39,138 bases of DNA from Vicinamibacterales bacterium (lineage in GTDB: Bacteria; Acidobacteriota; Vicinamibacteria; Vicinamibacterales; Fen-181), in assembly GCA_036504215.1 (NCBI GenBank), contig DASXVO010000076.1, forward strand, positions 99,079 through 138,216, given 5' to 3'. This document shows, one piece after another, positions 18,743 through 30,175 of the stretch; position 1 is the stretch's first letter, and each line of letters begins with the position of its first letter. Below the pieces are notes generated by a model. That model was not told where the DNA came from and did not search any database. It saw only the letters and a program-made list of their open reading frames with translations. The position numbers were made by a program, and so were the translations under genes.

Positions 18743-19675
18743 ATGAGCGAGACGCTTCGAACCGTGTCCGATACCGCGTTGTGGGTTGCGATGTACCGCG
18801 CGCTCGAGTCCGATCGACCGGACGCGCTGTTCCACGATCCGTATGCGCGACGACTCGCCGGCCCGCGCGGCGAGGCCATCCTGGCATCGATTCCCAGGGC
18901 GCGTTCCATGGCGTGGCCGATGATCGTCCGAACCGCCGTGATGGACGAAATCGTGCTCCGGTTGGTGGCGCAAGGGGTCCGGACGGTCGTCAACCTGGCG
19001 GCAGGCCTGGATGTTCGCGCGTACCGCCTGGCGCTTCCCGCGTCGCTGCACTGGCTCGACGTCGATCTGCCCGGCATGATTGCCTATCGGCGCGAGCACC
19101 TGAGCGATGCGGTCGCCACGTGCCGGCACGAGGACGTCGACGCCGACCTGCGCAACGCCGACGCCCGGGCGGCCGTGTTCGGTCGCGCCGGCACCGGGCC
19201 CGGTCCGGGCATGGTGATCACCGAGGGACTGCTGGTCTACCTGACGCCAGGCCAGGTCGGCGAGCTCGCCCGGGACGTGCACGCGGGTCCTGGCATCTGC
19301 TGGTGGTTGATCGACCTCGGGTCACCGCTGCTGTTGAAGATGCTCAGCCAAAGCTGGCAGCCGAGCCTCGACGCCGCGAACGCGCCGATGCAGTTCGCGC
19401 CGGCCGAGAACACGGCGTTCTTCGAGCCGTTCGGCTGGCGTGAGGCCGAGTATCGATCGACATGGGACGAGTCGCGGCGGCTGAAGCGCAGCGTGCCGCT
19501 GGCGGGTCTGTGGGAATTGCTCGGTCGCCTGCGGTCTCGCGCGACTCGCGAGGAATATAAGCGATTGTCTGGGGTGGTGCTGCTCGAGCACACCGACCGC
19601 GCCACGACCGGCGGTCCCCGCCTCAGCAGCGCGCGGGCGATCGAAGTCAATGGGGTCACGCCCTCAGAGCGATAG
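18743..19675 (+). CDS. SAM-dependent methyltransferase, leucine carboxyl methyltransferase (LCM/PPM) type
   Basis: A 310-residue class I methyltransferase of the LCM family. The N-terminal block (SDTALWVAMYRALESDRPDA, HDPYARRLAG) and the SAM-binding motif NLAAGLDVRAYRL (usually GAGLDTRAYRL) are diagnostic. LHWLDVDLPGM supplies the acidic residue for the ribose, and VITEGLLVYLTPGQV is the post-motif helix. The family methylates carboxyl or hydroxyl groups, often on polyketides; the substrate here cannot be told. The start codon has no strong ribosome binding site. It is 27 bp from the Reg_prop receptor and on the same strand, so co-transcription is possible. Confidence 0.88.
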   Translation: MSETLRTVSDTALWVAMYRALESDRPDALFHDPYARRLAGPRGEAILASIPRARSMAWPMIVRTAVMDEIVLRLVAQGVRTVVNLAAGLDVRAYRLALPASLHWLDVDLPGMIAYRREHLSDAVATCRHEDVDADLRNADARAAVFGRAGTGPGPGMVITEGLLVYLTPGQVGELARDVHAGPGICWWLIDLGSPLLLKMLSQSWQPSLDAANAPMQFAPAENTAFFEPFGWREAEYRSTWDESRRLKRSVPLAGLWELLGRLRSRATREEYKRLSGVVLLEHTDRATTGGPRLSSARAIEVNGVTPSER

Positions 19676-19702
19676 CGAAAGAATCGTGGTACGGAGGCTG
19701 GT

Positions 19703-22252
19703 GTGAAGACGCGGGGCGCGGGATGGGGGAGCGTGTGGGCGGTTGGAGTGACGCTGCTGATCGCGGCGTCTCCTGCCACGGCGCAGCAGGGTGGACGCCG
19801 TCCGTTCACCGTGCTCGGACCCGACCAGGGGCTGCCGTCGGCTGCGGTCGTCGCTCTCACGCAGGACAACGACGGCTTCATCTGGATCGGCACCGAGAAG
19901 GGGCTCGTTCGATACGACGGCGGTCAGTGCCGCATCTGGTCCAGGGCTGATGGCCTGCCGGCGGCGTGGGTGCCGCGGATCCTTCCGGCCCGCGACGGCG
20001 GTCTGTGGGTGGGCACGCTCGCCGGCCTCGTCCGGTTCAAGGACGGCAGGCTCGATCGCGTGAGGTTCGGCCCGGCGAGGTCGGAAGCACCCGCCGCGTT
20101 GATCGCCCTCGATCGAAAGGGAAGAGCGTGGGCGGCGACAAACGAGGGGTTGTTCGTCCAGACCGACGGCCTGACGTTCAGCGCCCTGCCGTGGAAGCCT
20201 GAAGGGCTGTCGTTCGAGCTCGCCGGGGGCGGCAACACGGGTTCGATGTATCTCGCCGGCGAAAGCGGTATCCGGGAATTCCTGGCCGACGGTTCGTCCC
20301 GCTCGTGGGGACCGGCCGACGGCCTGCCCGCGAGCGGCCCCGCTGTCGTCGTCGAGGACGGCGGGGGTCGTCTCTGGGCCGGGTCCGGGCGGACGCTCGT
20401 TGTCAAGGAGCCCGGCGCCACGCGCTTCATCGATCAATCGCACCGCCTGCCCGCCAGCCTCTCGGCCAACAGTGTGCCGTTCGTCGATCGTGACGGCAGC
20501 GTCTGGTTGGCGACGCAGGCCGGCGCGCTGCACCTGGTTGGCGGTGACCGCGCCGAGTTGCTCGATGCCGCGGGCGGTCTCCCGTTCCGCTGGGTCCGCT
20601 CGGTGTTCCGCGACCAGGAGGGCACGCTCTGGGTGCTCGGGCCGTCGCTCGCGAAGTTGCAAGGCAGCGGCCGGGTCTGGAACTACACGCTGTCGGGTGG
20701 CGCATCTGGTGAGGTGGTGTGGTTCGTGGCGCACGATCGGCAGGGCCGGGTACTGGCGGCTACAGACGACGGTGCCGCGCGGCTCGGTCCGGGCGGTCTC
20801 GTGCGCATTCCGGGCACCGAGGGCCGGCGCATCAAGGCGCTCGTCGAGGATCGCGGCGGCACGCTGTGGATGGTCAGCTCGATCGGGCCGACCTTGTGGC
20901 TGCGTCCGGGCGCCTCGACCGCGACCGAGGCGCCGCTCGGGACGTTCGGCCAGTCGATCAACTGCCCGATGGAGGACTCGTCGGGCCGCGTCTGGCTTGG
21001 CCATGCCCGCCAGGGACTGATGCGATGGGACCCGCAGGCGCGCCGCCTCGTGCAGGAGGTCGGCCCCGCCTCCACGCGGTCGCAGACACTCGTCGTGTCC
21101 AGCTTTCGGGAAGACACCCGCCACCGGCTCTGGGTCGCCACGAGCGCGGGACTGCTGGTTCGTGAACCGGACGGCCGATGGCGGTCCTTCACCACCGAGG
21201 ATGGTCTGTGCGCCGCCTGGGTGCGCGGGATGGCGTTTCTCCCGGACGGCAGCGCCTGGATTCACTACCAGGAGCCCGTCGGCATGACGCGGGTTCGCGT
21301 CGACGACCACCGGCTGACCATTCTCGAGCAGCGGAGCGCCGGCAGAGGTCTCCGCTCCGACCTGGTCTACGCGGTGCAGGTGGACGCGCGGGGACGGGTG
21401 TGGGCCACCACCGAACAGGGTCTCGACCGCCTCGAGCCGCCACTGCACGTCGGCCGGCACGAAGGCATGGTCAGCGAGGATTGTGCCGTGCTGGCCCTGC
21501 TCGCGGACGGCGATCGCATCTGGGTGGGCACGGCAGGCGGTCTCGTGGCGTACGACACAGGTTCGCCGGAGGCGGCGCCCCTGGCGCCGCGGGCGCACGT
21601 GGTGGAGATGACGTACGGCGGACGCCGGCTCGAGCCGCCGTTCAAGGCGGTCGCGCCGATCGCGTACCGCGATGCGACGATCGAGTTCCGAGTTGCCGCG
21701 CCCTACTACGCGAACGAGCGCGACATGCGATTCCAGGTTCGGCTGTCCGGCCTCGAGCGCGAATGGCGCGACACCTCGTCGAAGACCGTCTACTACCCCG
21801 CCCTGGCCGGAGGACGCTATTGCTTCGAGACGCGCACGGCGATCGGCGAATCGGGATTCGGCCCGATCGCCGGCCTCGAATTCGTCGTGCGCCCGCCGTG
21901 GTGGAGAACCTGGTGGGCTTACGCGCTCGCGCTCGTCGGCGGTATTGGCGGCGTCATCGGCCTGGCCGGCCTCCGCGTCCGGTCGCTGGCGCGGAGCAAG
22001 GCGGCGCTCGAGGCACTGGTCAGCACCCGCACGGCCGAACTCCGGTCGCGCAACGTGGAACTGGAGGATGCACTCGGCCGCGTCAAGCAGTTGTCGGGCG
22101 TGCTGCCGATGTGTGCGCACTGCAGGAAACTGCGCGACGACAAGGGATACTGGACGCAGCTCGAATCCTACATCGCGGAGCACACCGACGCGCAGTTCTC
22201 GCACGGGATCTGTCCGGATTGCATGAAGACACTGTACCCGGACTTCCAGTAG
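19703..22252 (+). CDS. Reg_prop/Y_Y_Y membrane receptor with C-terminal CxxC-CxxC domain and no kinase
   Basis: An 849-residue receptor. A signal peptide (about 1-28) is followed by roughly ten Reg_prop propeller repeats (typical units: QDNDGFIWIGTEKGLVRYDG, DARGRVWATTEQGLDRLEP), a Y_Y_Y domain (about 645-720; VRLSGLEREWRDTSSKTVYY) and one membrane helix (about 734-758). A short coiled-coil (about 765-795; SKAALEALVSTRTAELRSRN) follows, then a 50-residue tail with C804/C807 and C837/C840, plus H834. This tail is known from the ends of various response regulators and signalling proteins and looks zinc-binding. No HisKA, HATPase or DNA-binding domain is present, so output must go through the tail or a partner. 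GTG19703 has GGAGG 5 bases upstream. The winged-helix regulator follows 148 bp downstream. Confidence 0.87.
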   Translation: MKTRGAGWGSVWAVGVTLLIAASPATAQQGGRRPFTVLGPDQGLPSAAVVALTQDNDGFIWIGTEKGLVRYDGGQCRIWSRADGLPAAWVPRILPARDGGLWVGTLAGLVRFKDGRLDRVRFGPARSEAPAALIALDRKGRAWAATNEGLFVQTDGLTFSALPWKPEGLSFELAGGGNTGSMYLAGESGIREFLADGSSRSWGPADGLPASGPAVVVEDGGGRLWAGSGRTLVVKEPGATRFIDQSHRLPASLSANSVPFVDRDGSVWLATQAGALHLVGGDRAELLDAAGGLPFRWVRSVFRDQEGTLWVLGPSLAKLQGSGRVWNYTLSGGASGEVVWFVAHDRQGRVLAATDDGAARLGPGGLVRIPGTEGRRIKALVEDRGGTLWMVSSIGPTLWLRPGASTATEAPLGTFGQSINCPMEDSSGRVWLGHARQGLMRWDPQARRLVQEVGPASTRSQTLVVSSFREDTRHRLWVATSAGLLVREPDGRWRSFTTEDGLCAAWVRGMAFLPDGSAWIHYQEPVGMTRVRVDDHRLTILEQRSAGRGLRSDLVYAVQVDARGRVWATTEQGLDRLEPPLHVGRHEGMVSEDCAVLALLADGDRIWVGTAGGLVAYDTGSPEAAPLAPRAHVVEMTYGGRRLEPPFKAVAPIAYRDATIEFRVAAPYYANERDMRFQVRLSGLEREWRDTSSKTVYYPALAGGRYCFETRTAIGESGFGPIAGLEFVVRPPWWRTWWAYALALVGGIGGVIGLAGLRVRSLARSKAALEALVSTRTAELRSRNVELEDALGRVKQLSGVLPMCAHCRKLRDDKGYWTQLESYIAEHTDAQFSHGICPDCMKTLYPDFQ

Positions 22253-22356
22253 AACCGACGCTTCCTCCCCTGTCCGAACAGACCCGGTTCGAACGCGATC
22301 CTGCAGCCGACGCGGGCGCCAAGGTCCGGCCTCGGCCGCCGGCACCCGGAAAGGTA

Positions 22357-22400: not shown

Positions 22401-24158
22401 ATGCAGGATGTCGTCGTCTTTGGCTTCGGCCCGTTCCGGCTCGACCCGGACACGCGCCAGTTGTCCCGCGAGGGCCGGCCACTGCGGCTGACGTCGCGGA
22501 TGTTCGAGTTGCTGCTCTTCTTCGTGCAGAACGGCGGCCGGCCGATCCGCAAGGACGAGTTGATGGATGCCGTCTGGTCGGACAGCCCGGTGGAGGAGAG
22601 CAACCTGCCGGTGACCGTGTCCGCCCTTCGCAAGGTCCTCGGGGAGCGGCGCGGGCAACACCAGTATCTGCTCACGCTGCCGCGCTATGGCTACCGCTTC
22701 ACGCCGCGCGTCGAGTGGCATCGCCCGGCGGCCGAGGGACCCGTGGCCGCGGCGCCGCCCCGCCAGGCGTTCGGTACGGCAAAGGCGCAGGCGGTCGTGG
22801 TGCTGCCATTCCGCGCGCCCGGGGGCGACGAGACGGTCGCGGCCATCGGCCAGGGCCTGGCGAACGCGGTGGCGAGCGGATTGACTAGGCGCGGCCGCAC
22901 CGTGTTCCGCCCGGGCGCAGACCCCCTGACCGCGCCGCCGGATCTCGAGCGCCTCCGCCAGATGGGACGCCGATTCGGCGCACCGGCGGTTCTCGACGGC
23001 TCGATCTTCCGGTCGGGCAACCGGGTGCGCGTCGCCGTCGAACTCGTCCGGGTTCGCGACGCGGCCGTATTGTGGGCGGAACGGTTTGACGAGACGCTCG
23101 GCGACCCATTCGCCGTAGAGGATGCCATCGGCGGCCGCGTCATCGAGGCGCTGCTCTTGCGGCTGTCGGGTGATCACCACCCGCGGGGCCTCGACGGTGA
23201 TACGCGAAGCGTCGCGGCGCACCAGGCGTATCTGAAGGGGCGATACTTCTGGGAACGCCGGACGGAGGCGAGCCTGCGCCAGGGGATCACCTGCTTCGAG
23301 GAAGCGGCCGCCCACGACCCCGCATTCGCGTCGGCGCACCTCGGTGTAGCCGACTGCTACTTCCTGCTCAGCTACTACGGCGCGATCCCTCCGGCCGAGG
23401 GCTACCCGAAGGTCAGGGCCTCGGCGCAGAAGGCGCTCGAGATCGAACCCTCGCTCGGCATCGCCCACACCTCGCTCGGATGTGTCAGCCTGTTCTACGA
23501 CTGGAACGCCAAGGCGGCGCTGCATGCGTTCCAACGTGCCCTGGCCCTGAACCCGGAGCACGCTCGCACCCATCTCTGGTATTCCGAGTATCTGCGCGTG
23601 TCGGGCCGGTTCGACGAAGCGATCGCCGCGATGGAGCGCGCGCGGGCGCTCGACCCGCTGTCGCTGGTGGTGAACACGAGCCTCGGTCTCGTGCTCTTCT
23701 ACGCCCGGCGCTTCGACGCTGCCGTGGCGCAGGCGCGCAAGACGCTCGAGATGGATCCGTATTTCGGCATCGCACATTGGGTGCTCGGCCTCGCCCTCGA
23801 GCAGCAGCACGACTACGAGGCGGCGATCACCGAGTTCCGGACGGCGTTGGGCCTATCCGGGCGCAGCACGTTGATGCTGGCCACTCTCGGGCACGCCTGC
23901 GCCAGGGCGCGGCACCGCGCCGATGCCCAGCACGTGCTCGACGAACTCCGTCGTCTCGCCACGCGGCGCCACGTCTCCCCGTACGCGCTGGCCGTCGTCC
24001 ATGGCGGCCTCGAGAAGAAGGACGCCGCCCTCGCGTGCCTCGAGCAGGCCGTTGCCGAGCGCACCAGCTGGCTGTGCTACGCCGCCGTCAATCCGGTCCT
24101 CGACACGTTGAGAGGCGATCCCCGCTTCGAGGCGCTCGTGCTCCAGATCGGACTCTAA
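22401..24158 (+). CDS. Winged-helix (OmpR/CadC-type) TPR transcriptional regulator
   Basis: A 585-residue protein. An N-terminal Trans_reg_C winged-helix domain (about 5-100; FGPFRLDPDTRQLSREG, LTSRMFELLLFFVQNGG, LPRYGYRF) binds DNA. A TolB-like/FlgO-like segment (about 130-255; VLPFRAPGGDETVAAIGQGL, GAPAVLDGSIFRSGNRV) is followed by 6-8 tetratricopeptide repeats (about 270-550; for example HAFQRALALNPEHARTHLWY). No receiver domain or membrane helix is seen, so activity is likely tuned by protein contacts on the TPRs. This architecture is very common in Acidobacteriota. It starts just downstream of two phased GTTCTAAA repeats and lies between two Reg_prop receptors, one of which lacks any output kinase. 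Targets are unknown. Confidence 0.9.
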   Translation: MQDVVVFGFGPFRLDPDTRQLSREGRPLRLTSRMFELLLFFVQNGGRPIRKDELMDAVWSDSPVEESNLPVTVSALRKVLGERRGQHQYLLTLPRYGYRFTPRVEWHRPAAEGPVAAAPPRQAFGTAKAQAVVVLPFRAPGGDETVAAIGQGLANAVASGLTRRGRTVFRPGADPLTAPPDLERLRQMGRRFGAPAVLDGSIFRSGNRVRVAVELVRVRDAAVLWAERFDETLGDPFAVEDAIGGRVIEALLLRLSGDHHPRGLDGDTRSVAAHQAYLKGRYFWERRTEASLRQGITCFEEAAAHDPAFASAHLGVADCYFLLSYYGAIPPAEGYPKVRASAQKALEIEPSLGIAHTSLGCVSLFYDWNAKAALHAFQRALALNPEHARTHLWYSEYLRVSGRFDEAIAAMERARALDPLSLVVNTSLGLVLFYARRFDAAVAQARKTLEMDPYFGIAHWVLGLALEQQHDYEAAITEFRTALGLSGRSTLMLATLGHACARARHRADAQHVLDELRRLATRRHVSPYALAVVHGGLEKKDAALACLEQAVAERTSWLCYAAVNPVLDTLRGDPRFEALVLQIGL

Positions 24159-25357: not shown

Positions 25358-28300
25358 CTACTCTCCGGATCGGGCACGTGCCACGTCCTGCAGGACCTTC
25401 GACAGTTCCACCGCGTCAATGGGCTTCGACAGGTACCCGTCCATGCCCGCCTCCAGGCACCGCTCGCGATCGCCGGACATCGCATGTGCCGTCATGGCGT
25501 AGATCGGCACGTGCCGCGAACCGCCCGCCTCCTCGGCCCTGATGGCCCGCGTGGCCTCGAGGCCGTTCATCTCGGGCATCTGGACGTCCATCAGGATGAG
25601 ATCGAACCGTTCGTGCCGCGCCCTCGCGACCGCCTCCGTGCCACTGACGACAAGCGACGCGCGGTGGCCGCGCTTCTCGAGGAGGCGAGTCGCCAGTTTC
25701 TGGTTCACGGCATTGTCCTCGGCGACGAGGACGCTCAACGCCACACCGTGCTCGCGGAGCGAGTGCCGCGTCACGAGCGTGGTCGAGATCTGCGCAACGT
25801 CCGGCCGAGGTCCGAGCACCGCGACGACGGTGTCCAGGAGGTCGGACTCCCGGATTGGTTTGGTGAGATACCCCTGAATGCCCGCCTGTCGGCACCGCGC
25901 CGCGTCACCCGGCTGTCCGGCCGATGTCAGCATGATCAGCGCCGGCGCCGCATGCGTGGGGTGTTGGCGGATCTGTCCAGCCACGGCAAACCCGTCCATC
26001 TCGGGCATCATGGCGTCGATGAGCGCCAGCCGGAACGGCGCGCCCGCGGCCACCGCTCCATCGAGAGCGGCGATTGCCGCCACGCCGCCATCGACACAGA
26101 CCGGTTCCATCCTCCAACGGCGCAGCGTGTGGAGCAGCAGACGGCGGTTCACTTCGTGGTCGTCGACGACCAGCACGCGAAGGCCCACGAGCGTCTCATC
26201 GTCGGCGGGAACGAGTGCCGGAAGTTCGTGCGCCACGCCGAACTGGACGTCGAAGGAGAACGTGCTGCCACCGCTCGGACGGCTGGCGACTTCGATCCGC
26301 CCTCCCATCAGTGAGATCAGGCGCTGCGAAATCGCCAGGCCGAGACCGGTGCCGCCGTAGCGTCGCGTGGTCGATCCATCCACCTGCACGAACGCTCCGA
26401 AGATCGCCTCGAGCTTGTCGGCCGGAATCCCGATACCGGTGTCATGGACGCGAAATCGCAGCACGACATCTCCGTTGGCCGACTGCGGTGCGCCATCTGC
26501 GACTTCCACGCTCACCTCGCCCTCGTCGGTGAACTTGATGGCATTGCCCACGAGGTTGAGGAGCACCTGTCGCAGCCGCCCCGGATCGCCCACCACCTGA
26601 TCGGGCACCGCGTCGGGCACGTGCCACATCAGTTCGAGGCCCTTCTGCTGTGCCCGCACGGCCAGGGTCTTCAGCGTGTCCACGATCAGGGCGCGGAGCC
26701 TGAATCCGACGCGTTCGAGATCGAGGCGGCCCGCCTCGATCTTCGAGAAGTCGAGGATGTCGTTGATGATGCTCAGCAATCCCTGCGCCGAATCCCGCAC
26801 GGTGGAAAGATAGTCGGCTTGTTCGGCCGTCAGTTCCGTGGCGAGCGCCAGTTCGGTCATGCCGACGATGCCGTTCATCGGCGTCCGGATCTCGTGGCTC
26901 ATATTCGCGAGGAACTCGCTCTTGGCCCGGTTCGCGCCCTCGGCGCGCTCCTTCGCCGCCTCGAGCGCGTCCTGCGTGGCCCTCCGCTCGGCGACCTCGG
27001 CCTGCAGCCGATCCTGCGCTTGCCGACGCTCGGCCACCTCGAGTTGCAGGGCGCGGGTCCGCTCGTCGACCATGCGCATCAACTCCCGCTCGCGGACACG
27101 AACGCTTCGCATGCGGAGGCCGTACGCCCCCGAAGTGGCGGCCACCAGTCCCGCCAGAATCAACGTCCAGAACCAGGTCGTCTGGTAGACATACGGCCGA
27201 AGCTCGAAGGCCGCCGATGCGCCGGTCTCGGACCATCCGAGCGGACTGCTGCTGGCGGTCACCCGGAATGTATACCGGCCCGGCGGCAGGTTCGTGTAGA
27301 ACGCCGTGCGACGCCCCTGCGCCTCGTTCCAGGTCGTGTCGAAGCCGTCGAGGCGATAGCGATACCGTACCCGCTCGGGCGCGCCCAGACTGATCCCGGT
27401 GTACTGGAACTGAATCTCCCGACGTCCGGGCGGCAGGCTGGCGAGGCCGTACGGCGAATACTCGTTGCGGTCGGCCACGAGACGCTGGACGTGCACCAGC
27501 GGCGGCTGCGGGTGTTTCGTCAGGGATCCCGGATCGACCGCCACCGCGCCGGCTTGCGTCGAGAACCAGAGGCGGCCGTTGGACGCCCGCCAGGCCGAGG
27601 GCTGCGTGCCCCCATTGCATTCGCGTGCCCGCATCCCTTCCGCGTAGCCGTAGGTCGTTGATGTCACGGTGCGCAGCGCGCCGCGGGCGACCGAGCGCAG
27701 GTCCGCCTTGGACACCCGGAAGATGCCCTTGTTGCAGGTCATCCACAGGTAGCCGAGCCCATCGTCGAGGATGGCGTAGACCGAGTCGTCTGTCAGTCCG
27801 GTCTTGTACGTGATCGACCTGGCCGAACGGCCTTCGATTCGGACGAGGCCTCCGCCGCCGGTCCCGATCCACACCACGCCTTCGGCATCCTCCAGGATCG
27901 CGAACACCCGTTGCCGGGCCGATACGTCGGGGACCGTGACCGGCGTCAGACGTCCCTGCTCGAAGCGCACGGCACCGTAGCGCGTGCCGATCCAGAGGAC
28001 ACCCTGCCGGTCCAGCATGAGCGCTCGCACGTCGTTACTGGGCAGGCCGTCTCTGGTGGTCAGGACACTGACCCTGTTGTCGAAGAGGTGCACCAGGCCG
28101 TCGTTCACCGTGCCCACCCACAGGCTGCCGTCCGGCGCCGGAAACAGGGAGCGGATGAAGACGAGCGGCACGCCGGCCCGCTGACGATAGGTCGTGAGAC
28201 GCCCGCCATCCAGGACCGACAAGCCGGTGTCGGTGCCGATCCACACGCGGCCCTTGCGATCGGAGACGATCGCGTTGATCTCGTTGCTGGAGAGTCCGTC

Positions 28301-29470
28301 GCGGGTCGTGAAGCCCCTTACGCCGCCCGGCGTCATGCGCCAGGCTCCGCCCCGATCCGTTCCAACCCAGATGGCGCCCGTCGAATCTTCGTGCACGCTC
28401 CACGCGCCGCCCGGCGCCAGGCCCTCGGGCGCGCCATAATTGAGGAAGACGCTGTCCTTCAGTCGGACCACGCCGCCGCCCTGCATGCCTGCCCAGAGGT
28501 TTCCATCGCGGTCGTTCATCAGGCTGGTGACGCGGTTGTACGGCAGGCCGTCGGCCTCGCTCAGCGTCGAGAACTGGCCCGCGTCGAATCGGGCCAGTCC
28601 GCCCGCGTCGGTGCCGATCCACAGCACGCCGTGGTCGTCGCGGATCAGCGCCCGAATGTACGGATTCGGCAGGCCGGATCCGGCGCCGAAGTGATCGACG
28701 CGGTCGCCCTGCCAGTGGTGCAGGCCGTCGCGTCCGCCGACCCACAAGCCACCCGCCCCGTCGTCGACGATGGCGGAGATCGGCGTCCGCGCGAGTGGAT
28801 TGCCGCTCGGCAAGGGCACGACTCGGTCGCCTTGAAAGGCCACCAGCCCGCCTCCCGTGCCAACCCACAATCTACCGTCCGGCCCGCCGTAGATGGCCGC
28901 GACATCGTCGTGGGGCAGGCCGTCCCTTGTCGAGTAGGTTGTGAACCGCCCGCCGGCGAAGCGCGTGAGTCCACCCCCGAGGGTTCCAATCCAGAGCGTG
29001 CCCTTCGAGTCCTCGTAGAGGGCGTAGACATCCTCTCTCGGCAGGCCGTCCTTTGCCCTGTAGGCGGTGAAGCGGCCCTGTGCATAGCGAACGAGGCCTC
29101 CGCCGGTACCGATCCAAAGCGTTCCGTCGCGTCCCTCGACGATGCACTGGGTGGTGTTGTGGGGGTAGCCGGGGACGGTCGTCGTGTCGAACGCGGTGAA
29201 CTCGACGCCATCGAACCTGATCAGGCCCTCCTGTGTGCCGATCCACAGGTAGCCATCCCTGGTTTGGGTGACGGCCAGGACGCCATTCTGCGGCAACCCG
29301 TCCTGAATCTGCCAGACTCGGCGGCTGTACTGGGTGAGGGCCCGCCCGCGCTCGAGGGCAAACGAGGGTGCCGCCACGGTCAGCACGACACAGACCGCAG
29401 CCAAGGCCAGAACGCCGGGCCGTGTGCCGACCAGGCCCACACCGCCGGTTGAACGCGGGTCAGTGGCCAT
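25358..29470 (-). CDS. Reg_prop hybrid sensor histidine kinase with two receiver domains
   Basis: A 1370-residue one-protein two-component system. A signal segment (about 15-40) is followed by about a dozen Reg_prop propeller repeats (about 45-665; typical [19 protein letters not shown]), a Y_Y_Y domain (about 690-755) and one membrane helix (about 765-785). A coiled coil leads into HisKA with H859 in [12 protein letters not shown] and a HATPase domain ([28 protein letters not shown]). Two REC domains follow, with phospho-acceptor Asp in [13 protein letters not shown] and [13 protein letters not shown]. Such hybrids in Bacteroidetes and Acidobacteria sense oligosaccharides. ATG29470 begins the signal region; ATG29518 is a possible alternative. 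Without a DNA-binding domain, the final output must be another protein. The polysaccharide deacetylase follows after 10 bp. Confidence 0.95.
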
Positions 29471-29689
29471 AGGAAACCGTCGGGCGGGCGCAAGGCCCCC
29501 TCCTCTAGAAATCGTCATCGGACGTGCATGCTTGACCCCTGGGCCGTACCTTTGGCGCCAAACGCTGCCGGTTCGCACACGTTGAAGCCCTCCTCGCTGT
29601 CGACCGGTGTCGACTTCTTCCACGCCACGGAGCCGTCGATGTCGAGCACCCTGGCGGTGACAGGCAGCCCCGGTACCGTCCCGCCGGAG
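29471..29689. other. Divergent promoter region of the hybrid kinase
   Basis: About 220 bases between the kinase start and the VWFA-related remnant. A plus-strand frame here contains [17 protein letters not shown], which may be further remnant of the same lost gene, but this is not firm. No clear promoter elements are seen. Confidence 0.3.
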
Positions 29690-29973
29690 CAGGCATGGGC
29701 GGCCGCGGCATGGGCTTCCGCTCACCGCAGGTGCAGTTCCAGATCGGCTTCCTTCGGTCGCTCGCCGAGACGACCGGCGGGCGGGTGTTTCGAGCGAGTC
29801 CCCGGCTGTCGGTCGAGGAAGTGTTCCAGTTGGTTCTCGACGACGCGCGGTCGCGGCATGTGCTGACGTACTCGCCGGACAGACCTGCGTCGGGGTGGCA
29901 CAAGCTGCAGGTCGAGCTGGCTGGCGCCAGGGGCGATGTGGTGGCACGCCGCGGCTACTTCGTGGCCGGCATT
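29690..29973 (+). pseudogene. C-terminal remnant of a VWFA-related protein
   Basis: An open stretch of about 90 codons reads [54 protein letters not shown] and [11 protein letters not shown]. This is the characteristic end of the VWFA-related domain proteins frequent in Acidobacteria, where a Tyr-rich repeat ends in ARRGY(F/Y). The first 200 or more residues, including the metal-ion-binding DxSxS site, are absent, and the frame runs on past the normal end without a stop. It is a truncated relic inserted between the kinase promoter and the MFS gene. Confidence 0.7.
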
Positions 29974-30175
29974 CATCGAGCCACTTCACGGCATCACCTC
30001 TCGAACCAGAACGGCCTGATGGGGCTGCGACCGAGCCGTGCTACCCTTCGACTCCGTTGTGTTGCGCGCCTGCCCAGCCCGTGGCGTGCGATGTCGTCCC
30101 GCTCCGTTCATCGCCGACCGGCGCCATGCCACGAGCTCGAGGCACAGGCGTGCGCACACGTGGAGAGTTACTCGC

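Follow-up and report, generated by a model that had tools for sequence, protein, structure and literature searches.

Proteins in which Reg_prop and Y_Y_Y domains are followed by a GGDEF domain are known, for example GdpX2 and GdpX3 of Xanthomonas oryzae (PMC6637768). The receptor described here, which is encoded in a window of 39,138 bp (the whole stretch of DNA that was analyzed) from a member of the Vicinamibacterales, has a periplasmic propeller, a probable, divergent Y_Y_Y domain, and a membrane helix in common with these proteins and with the Reg_prop/Y_Y_Y hybrid two-component systems, and its sensor is 28% identical to that of a hybrid kinase encoded in the same window. Unlike them, it has neither a kinase nor a receiver nor a GGDEF domain, and a Cys-containing C-terminal domain (in the following referred to as the tail) is its sole cytoplasmic domain. 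Cys-rich output domains are represented by HalOD2 and TackOD1, archaeal response regulator output domains with CXXC motifs (PMC5847659), which resemble the tail as putative metal-binding outputs located after signaling domains. Both have been described mainly from archaea, TackOD1 from a few bacteria as well; the N-terminal part of HalOD2 is HalX-like, and TackOD1 contains 11 cysteines (PMC5847659). Neither family was among the Pfam matches listed for 42 tails at E-values of up to 1, from a library that may not include HalOD2. The protein also resembles transmembrane transcription regulators of the CadC/ToxR type in working like a kinase-free one-component receptor of the membrane, but the output of these regulators is a DNA-binding helix-turn-helix (HTH) domain (PMC10269533), of which the receptor has none according to Pfam. 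Whereas archaeal Cys-rich outputs and Reg_prop-GGDEF receptors are known, a kinase-less Reg_prop receptor with a Cys tail adds a new form to these known kinds, and the widespread tail, which has no name in the databases searched, is a more interesting object than the receptor itself.

Architecture of the receptor

The receptor gene is an intact open reading frame with a GTG start codon (Table 1). Its product carries the Reg_prop repeats that characterize the family, and hydropathy predicts a single transmembrane helix. An earlier note, made from the DNA sequence of the window, had described a Reg_prop sensor that ends in a Cys tail and lacks kinase, receiver, GGDEF, and HTH domains, and this description was borne out by Pfam and by a six-frame profile search. 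Pfam matched no catalytic domain (kinase, receiver, or GGDEF) in the receptor, and no HTH family was matched by Pfam or NCBIfam. The Y_Y_Y domain, also named in the note, scored below the curated Pfam cut-off in the window protein. Since a 58% identical ortholog (G159:C1:446167-446352) exceeds the cut-off at the same place (E = 3.1e-8), the region in the receptor is read as a divergent but real Y_Y_Y domain.

The six-frame search of the whole window detected no GGDEF domain, and its HisKA, HATPase, and REC matches were confined to the separate hybrid kinase on the minus strand (25403-26935), so no frameshift conceals a kinase. A hidden or frameshifted kinase is ruled out by this search together with the orthologs, and the frameshifted HATPase domain that the note had considered as a possible flaw of its reading was not present in any of the six frames of the window. 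An open frame of 893 amino acids lies antisense to the entire receptor gene (window 19664-22345, minus strand); such a frame is what the codon bias of a genome with 68% G + C would be expected to produce and provides no evidence of a gene.

Table 1. Coordinates, in window positions, of the receptor, its parts, and the adjoining genes.
Feature	Position	Strand	Evidence
Kinase-less Reg_prop/Y_Y_Y receptor, 849 aa	19703..22252	+	ORF, Pfam, 21 orthologs
Predicted signal peptide, residues 1-28, KTRGAGWGSVWAVGVTLLIAASPATAQQ	19703..19786	+	sequence reading
Periplasmic beta-propeller, Reg_prop repeats, residues ~43-640	19829..21622	+	PF07494 E 1.6e-35; W-x-G repeat motifs
Divergent Y_Y_Y, residues 669-709 matched	21707..21829	+	PF07495 E 0.13, 12.6 bits vs cut-off 26.6
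Transmembrane helix, residues 739-757	21917..21973	+	hydropathy 1.9 over 19 residues
Cytoplasmic coiled coil/signaling helix, residues 758-796	21974..22090	+	AlphaFold2
Conserved Cys/His tail domain, residues 797-849	22091..22249	+	179-tail alignment; AlphaFold2 core model
LCM-type/TIGR00027 SAM-dependent methyltransferase	18743..19675	+	PF04072 E 4.4e-32; TIGR00027 E 2.5e-35
Winged-helix + TPR regulator (Trans_reg_C)	22401..24158	+	PF00486 E 6.7e-16; TPR_16 E 1.7e-20
Reg_prop-Y_Y_Y-HisKA-HATPase-REC-REC hybrid kinase, ordinary	25358..29989	-	Pfam

Conservation, distribution, and predicted fold of the tail

The tail follows the pattern C-x2-C ... W ... H-x2-C-x2-C, located C-terminally after a signaling helix, and all six positions were confirmed in the window protein as C804, C807, W817, H834, C837, and C840. 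In a set of 179 distinct tails, which come from 12 or more phyla, each of them is conserved in 99-100% of the sequences, and R811, D813, E821, Y823, F832, and P838 are conserved in 92-98%. This conservation rules out a degenerate tail, a case that the note had held against its own proposal. The window tail matched the tail profile with an E-value of 9.6e-34, being itself one of the 42 rows of that profile. The tail was found in 30 of 60 relatives. Its profile matched 136 of the phylum's 396 genomes and, across GTDB genomes, no fewer than 577 confirmed places, and a chance origin is therefore excluded. The 80 GTDB places that were retained belong to Desulfobacterota, Nitrospirota, Nitrospinota, Spirochaetota, Chloroflexota, Verrucomicrobiota/Lentisphaerota, Ignavibacteriota, Neomarinimicrobiota, Hydrogenedentota, Poribacteria, Bacteroidota, Planctomycetota, and Acidobacteriota. 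The genome of an anammox planctomycete (G530, “Candidatus Anammoxibacter”) contains 39 copies; all ten loci sampled from it (L236-L245) encode response regulators consisting of REC and tail, most of which have an insert of approximately six residues before the invariant W.

Neither the tail alone nor its 42 relatives had a meaningful match in Pfam or NCBIfam, and a comparison with PDB sequences yielded nothing significant. Nothing relevant was retrieved with typical tail sequence words from the papers searched. Identity with the zinc anti-sigma (ZAS) domain, whose motif is HxxxCxxC, was set aside, as the tail has H-x2-C-x2-C. The segment FSHGICP is loosely reminiscent of a HisKA H-box; the idea of H834 as a phospho-acceptor was given no weight.

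AlphaFold2 models, which were built without metal, reached a pLDDT of 89.2 for the tail with the preceding helix (42 sequences) and 89.9 for the tail core (64 sequences). A single long helix was predicted up to approximately residue 798, with block pLDDT values of 96-97 over the first 20 modeled residues, followed by the C804/C807 knuckle and by short strands, after which come one further helix and a last one that starts at C837/C840. Judged by this secondary structure, the layout looks like that of a treble-clef-type zinc finger. Foldseek and VIA found no meaningful match in the PDB, so that the predicted binding of zinc or another metal by the four cysteines is deduced from the Cys pattern. 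Two tails (L026 in genome G019 and L050 in G021) have lost at least two of the four cysteines and kept the positions of H834 and W817; they may be metal-free variants, and metal may be dispensable in some cases. A separate frame of 69 amino acids in genome G010 (L034:1486-1692, minus strand) encodes a C-to-S tail much like that of L008, a second receptor from the window's own genome (see below), has no upstream receptor frame, and is likely a pseudogene remnant.

The tail as a terminal output domain

Every one of 160 distinct proteins examined has the tail as its last domain, followed by no more than 40 residues, and according to profiles and a motif search HisKA, HATPase, and GGDEF are absent from all of these chains. 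This exclusion of GGDEF and kinases was made with regular expressions and purpose-built profiles, except for ten proteins, which were scanned against Pfam. The domains that precede the tail are diverse and include REC, PAS, HAMP with dCache or sCache, a phosphonate-binding protein, 7TMR-DISM, TPR, and propellers. The description of a putative zinc tail as the only cytoplasmic output of the receptor stands, with the domain conserved across the 179 tails. The further suggestion that this role is unusual was not supported: because the tail is C-terminal and unaccompanied by HisKA, HATPase, or GGDEF in the 160 proteins, its role as sole output is not exceptional in the window protein and, as far as tested, is the rule for this domain.

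Exchange of outputs on related sensors

The proposed search for kinase-less proteins that combine a propeller with the Cys tail was productive and yielded 39 receptors. A second receptor with propeller, Y_Y_Y, transmembrane helix, and tail is encoded in the window's own genome (L008:6136-9102, contig C85), at least eight occur in genome G064, and single ones were found in Opitutae, Ignavibacteria, and Bacteroidetes. Within the same genomes, propeller receptors carry HisKA kinases, other kinase types, GGDEF domains, or the tail as outputs. In a tree calculated from the sensor region only (57 receptors, 726 columns), the distribution of tail and non-tail outputs needs 10 changes, at least five of which are forced by strongly supported branches. 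The clearest case is the pair formed by L008 and L220, a receptor with a canonical RYGGDEF motif from another family of the same order (G022). Their sensors are 73% identical, with 70-92% identity in most 50-residue windows, and identity drops to 29% just past the membrane helix. A similar break was observed between the tail receptor L096 and a kinase of the same genome (L231), which are 59% identical. These sensors have repeatedly exchanged the tail with GGDEF and kinase outputs, and the exchanges are the strongest evidence for the tail as a complete output module. With the tail in one species and a diguanylate cyclase in another, L008 and L220 offer the same input with two readouts, which is directly testable. 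Another probable output swap is L228 (contig C67 of genome G064), in which the propeller/Y_Y_Y sensor is joined to a C-terminal part resembling a Ser/Thr protein kinase.

The window receptor has 21 orthologs with 50-61% identity over approximately 820-845 residues, all of which end in the same tail. Apart from one Acidobacteria MAG, their hosts all belong to f38, a different family of the same phylum, and among 162 genomes of its own order the receptor had no match at an E-value of 1e-40. The receptor was likely gained by horizontal acquisition, the sensor tree leaving the direction undecided. Contamination of the assembly as its source is less likely because an S9 peptidase encoded nearby shares 81-82% identity with congeneric genomes; the sites are otherwise non-syntenic, so that they revealed no empty site.

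Proposed mode of action

We consider it rather probable that the receptor is a kinase-less protein in which the tail serves as a self-sufficient, metal-stabilized output module that replaces HisKA/HATPase or GGDEF and recruits a putative cytoplasmic partner. A periplasmic ligand would alter the dimer formed by the propeller and Y_Y_Y domains, and the change would run via the membrane helix and a dimeric coiled coil, by analogy with those kinases and diguanylate cyclases that belong to this sensor family, in which the signal passes through these two elements. The metal-stabilized tail of approximately 50 residues, with its Cys4(+His) pattern, would then bind or release the putative partner protein in the cytoplasm. 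Partner binding as the way in which the tail works is deduced from its small size and the lack of any known catalytic family in it, and since no conserved neighbor was detected, the gene for the partner probably lies at another place in the genome. A conserved module that is found at the end of hundreds of receptors and response regulators from 12 or more phyla, and that takes the place of GGDEF or kinase outputs on nearly identical sensors, implies a signaling route that is absent from the sources searched. Only tentatively can the tail be ranked as a major bacterial output class comparable to GGDEF and HisKA, with a dedicated partner pathway of its own and with the invariant H834, which is superfluous to a four-Cys site, as the functional residue.

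Alternatively, the tail could be a metal-dependent DNA- or RNA-binding domain, in which case the receptor would act from the membrane as a one-component regulator, like the transmembrane regulators of the CadC/ToxR type. The Cys4 knuckles and the conserved basic stretch C-K-K-I-R are compatible with such a function, and the HalOD2 CXXC output domains have been proposed to bind DNA or RNA (PMC5847659). We regard nucleic-acid binding as unlikely, however, as the tail also carries the conserved acidic residues D812, D813, and E821, shows no significant similarity to a known nucleic-acid-binding family, and lacks a conserved adjoining target gene.

Genomic neighborhood and further alternatives

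The winged-helix TPR (wHTH-TPR) regulator encoded 148 bp downstream of the receptor had been named in the earlier note as the natural candidate for its partner. Both genes are on the same strand with no terminator-like site between them, and since Trans_reg_C genes are scarce, with 17 matches in this 5.9-Mb genome, the adjacency is notable and unlikely to be due to chance in this one genome. The linkage is not conserved, however. A Trans_reg_C gene was found near none of the 21 orthologs and in only two of the 39 propeller-tail loci, namely in the window and, across a gap of approximately 0.9 kb, in L041. In other phyla it accounts for 1 of 135 genes adjoining tail genes (0 of 279 distal genes), and in the genomes of the orthologs the relatives of the regulator, which are at most 40% identical, are located away from the receptor. 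A conserved pair is thereby ruled out, and signaling through this regulator appears improbable. The sole recurrent feature of the neighborhoods of tail genes are genes with receiver domains, which in other phyla are more common among adjacent than among distal genes (14 of 135 vs. 8 of 279; Fisher p = 0.004); this fits a membership of the tail proteins in two-component networks.

The cysteines might also form a switch (Zn/thiol or Fe-S) that responds to redox or metal and joins the periplasmic ligand to the redox or metal state of the cytoplasm. Four near-invariant cysteines and an invariant histidine, one ortholog located between mnmA-like and thioredoxin-reductase-like genes, and the many orthologs beside a bshA-like gene (all names read from sequence) would agree with such a switch. 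There is little to recommend it nevertheless, as these neighbors do not recur beyond the ortholog family and structural zinc sites with four cysteines are frequent and in most cases lack redox activity. That the receptor is a decoy or dominant-negative protein retaining the tail as a leftover after kinase loss would be in line with the missing catalytic domain (Pfam), but is highly improbable for a domain that is 99-100% conserved across 12 or more phyla, is conserved in the 21 orthologs, and was gained repeatedly on different sensors.

The methyltransferase gene, which precedes the receptor gene by 27 bp, is taken as a neighbor only, and a homolog search with the open reading frame at window:24289-25485 (minus strand), run without a positive control, returned no match. 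Many orthologs (L086, L089, L092, L188-L196) lie immediately downstream of the bshA-like gene, which would encode a glycosyltransferase, and several of these loci have a dinB-like gene on the opposite side, both names being based on the reading of N-terminal sequences only.
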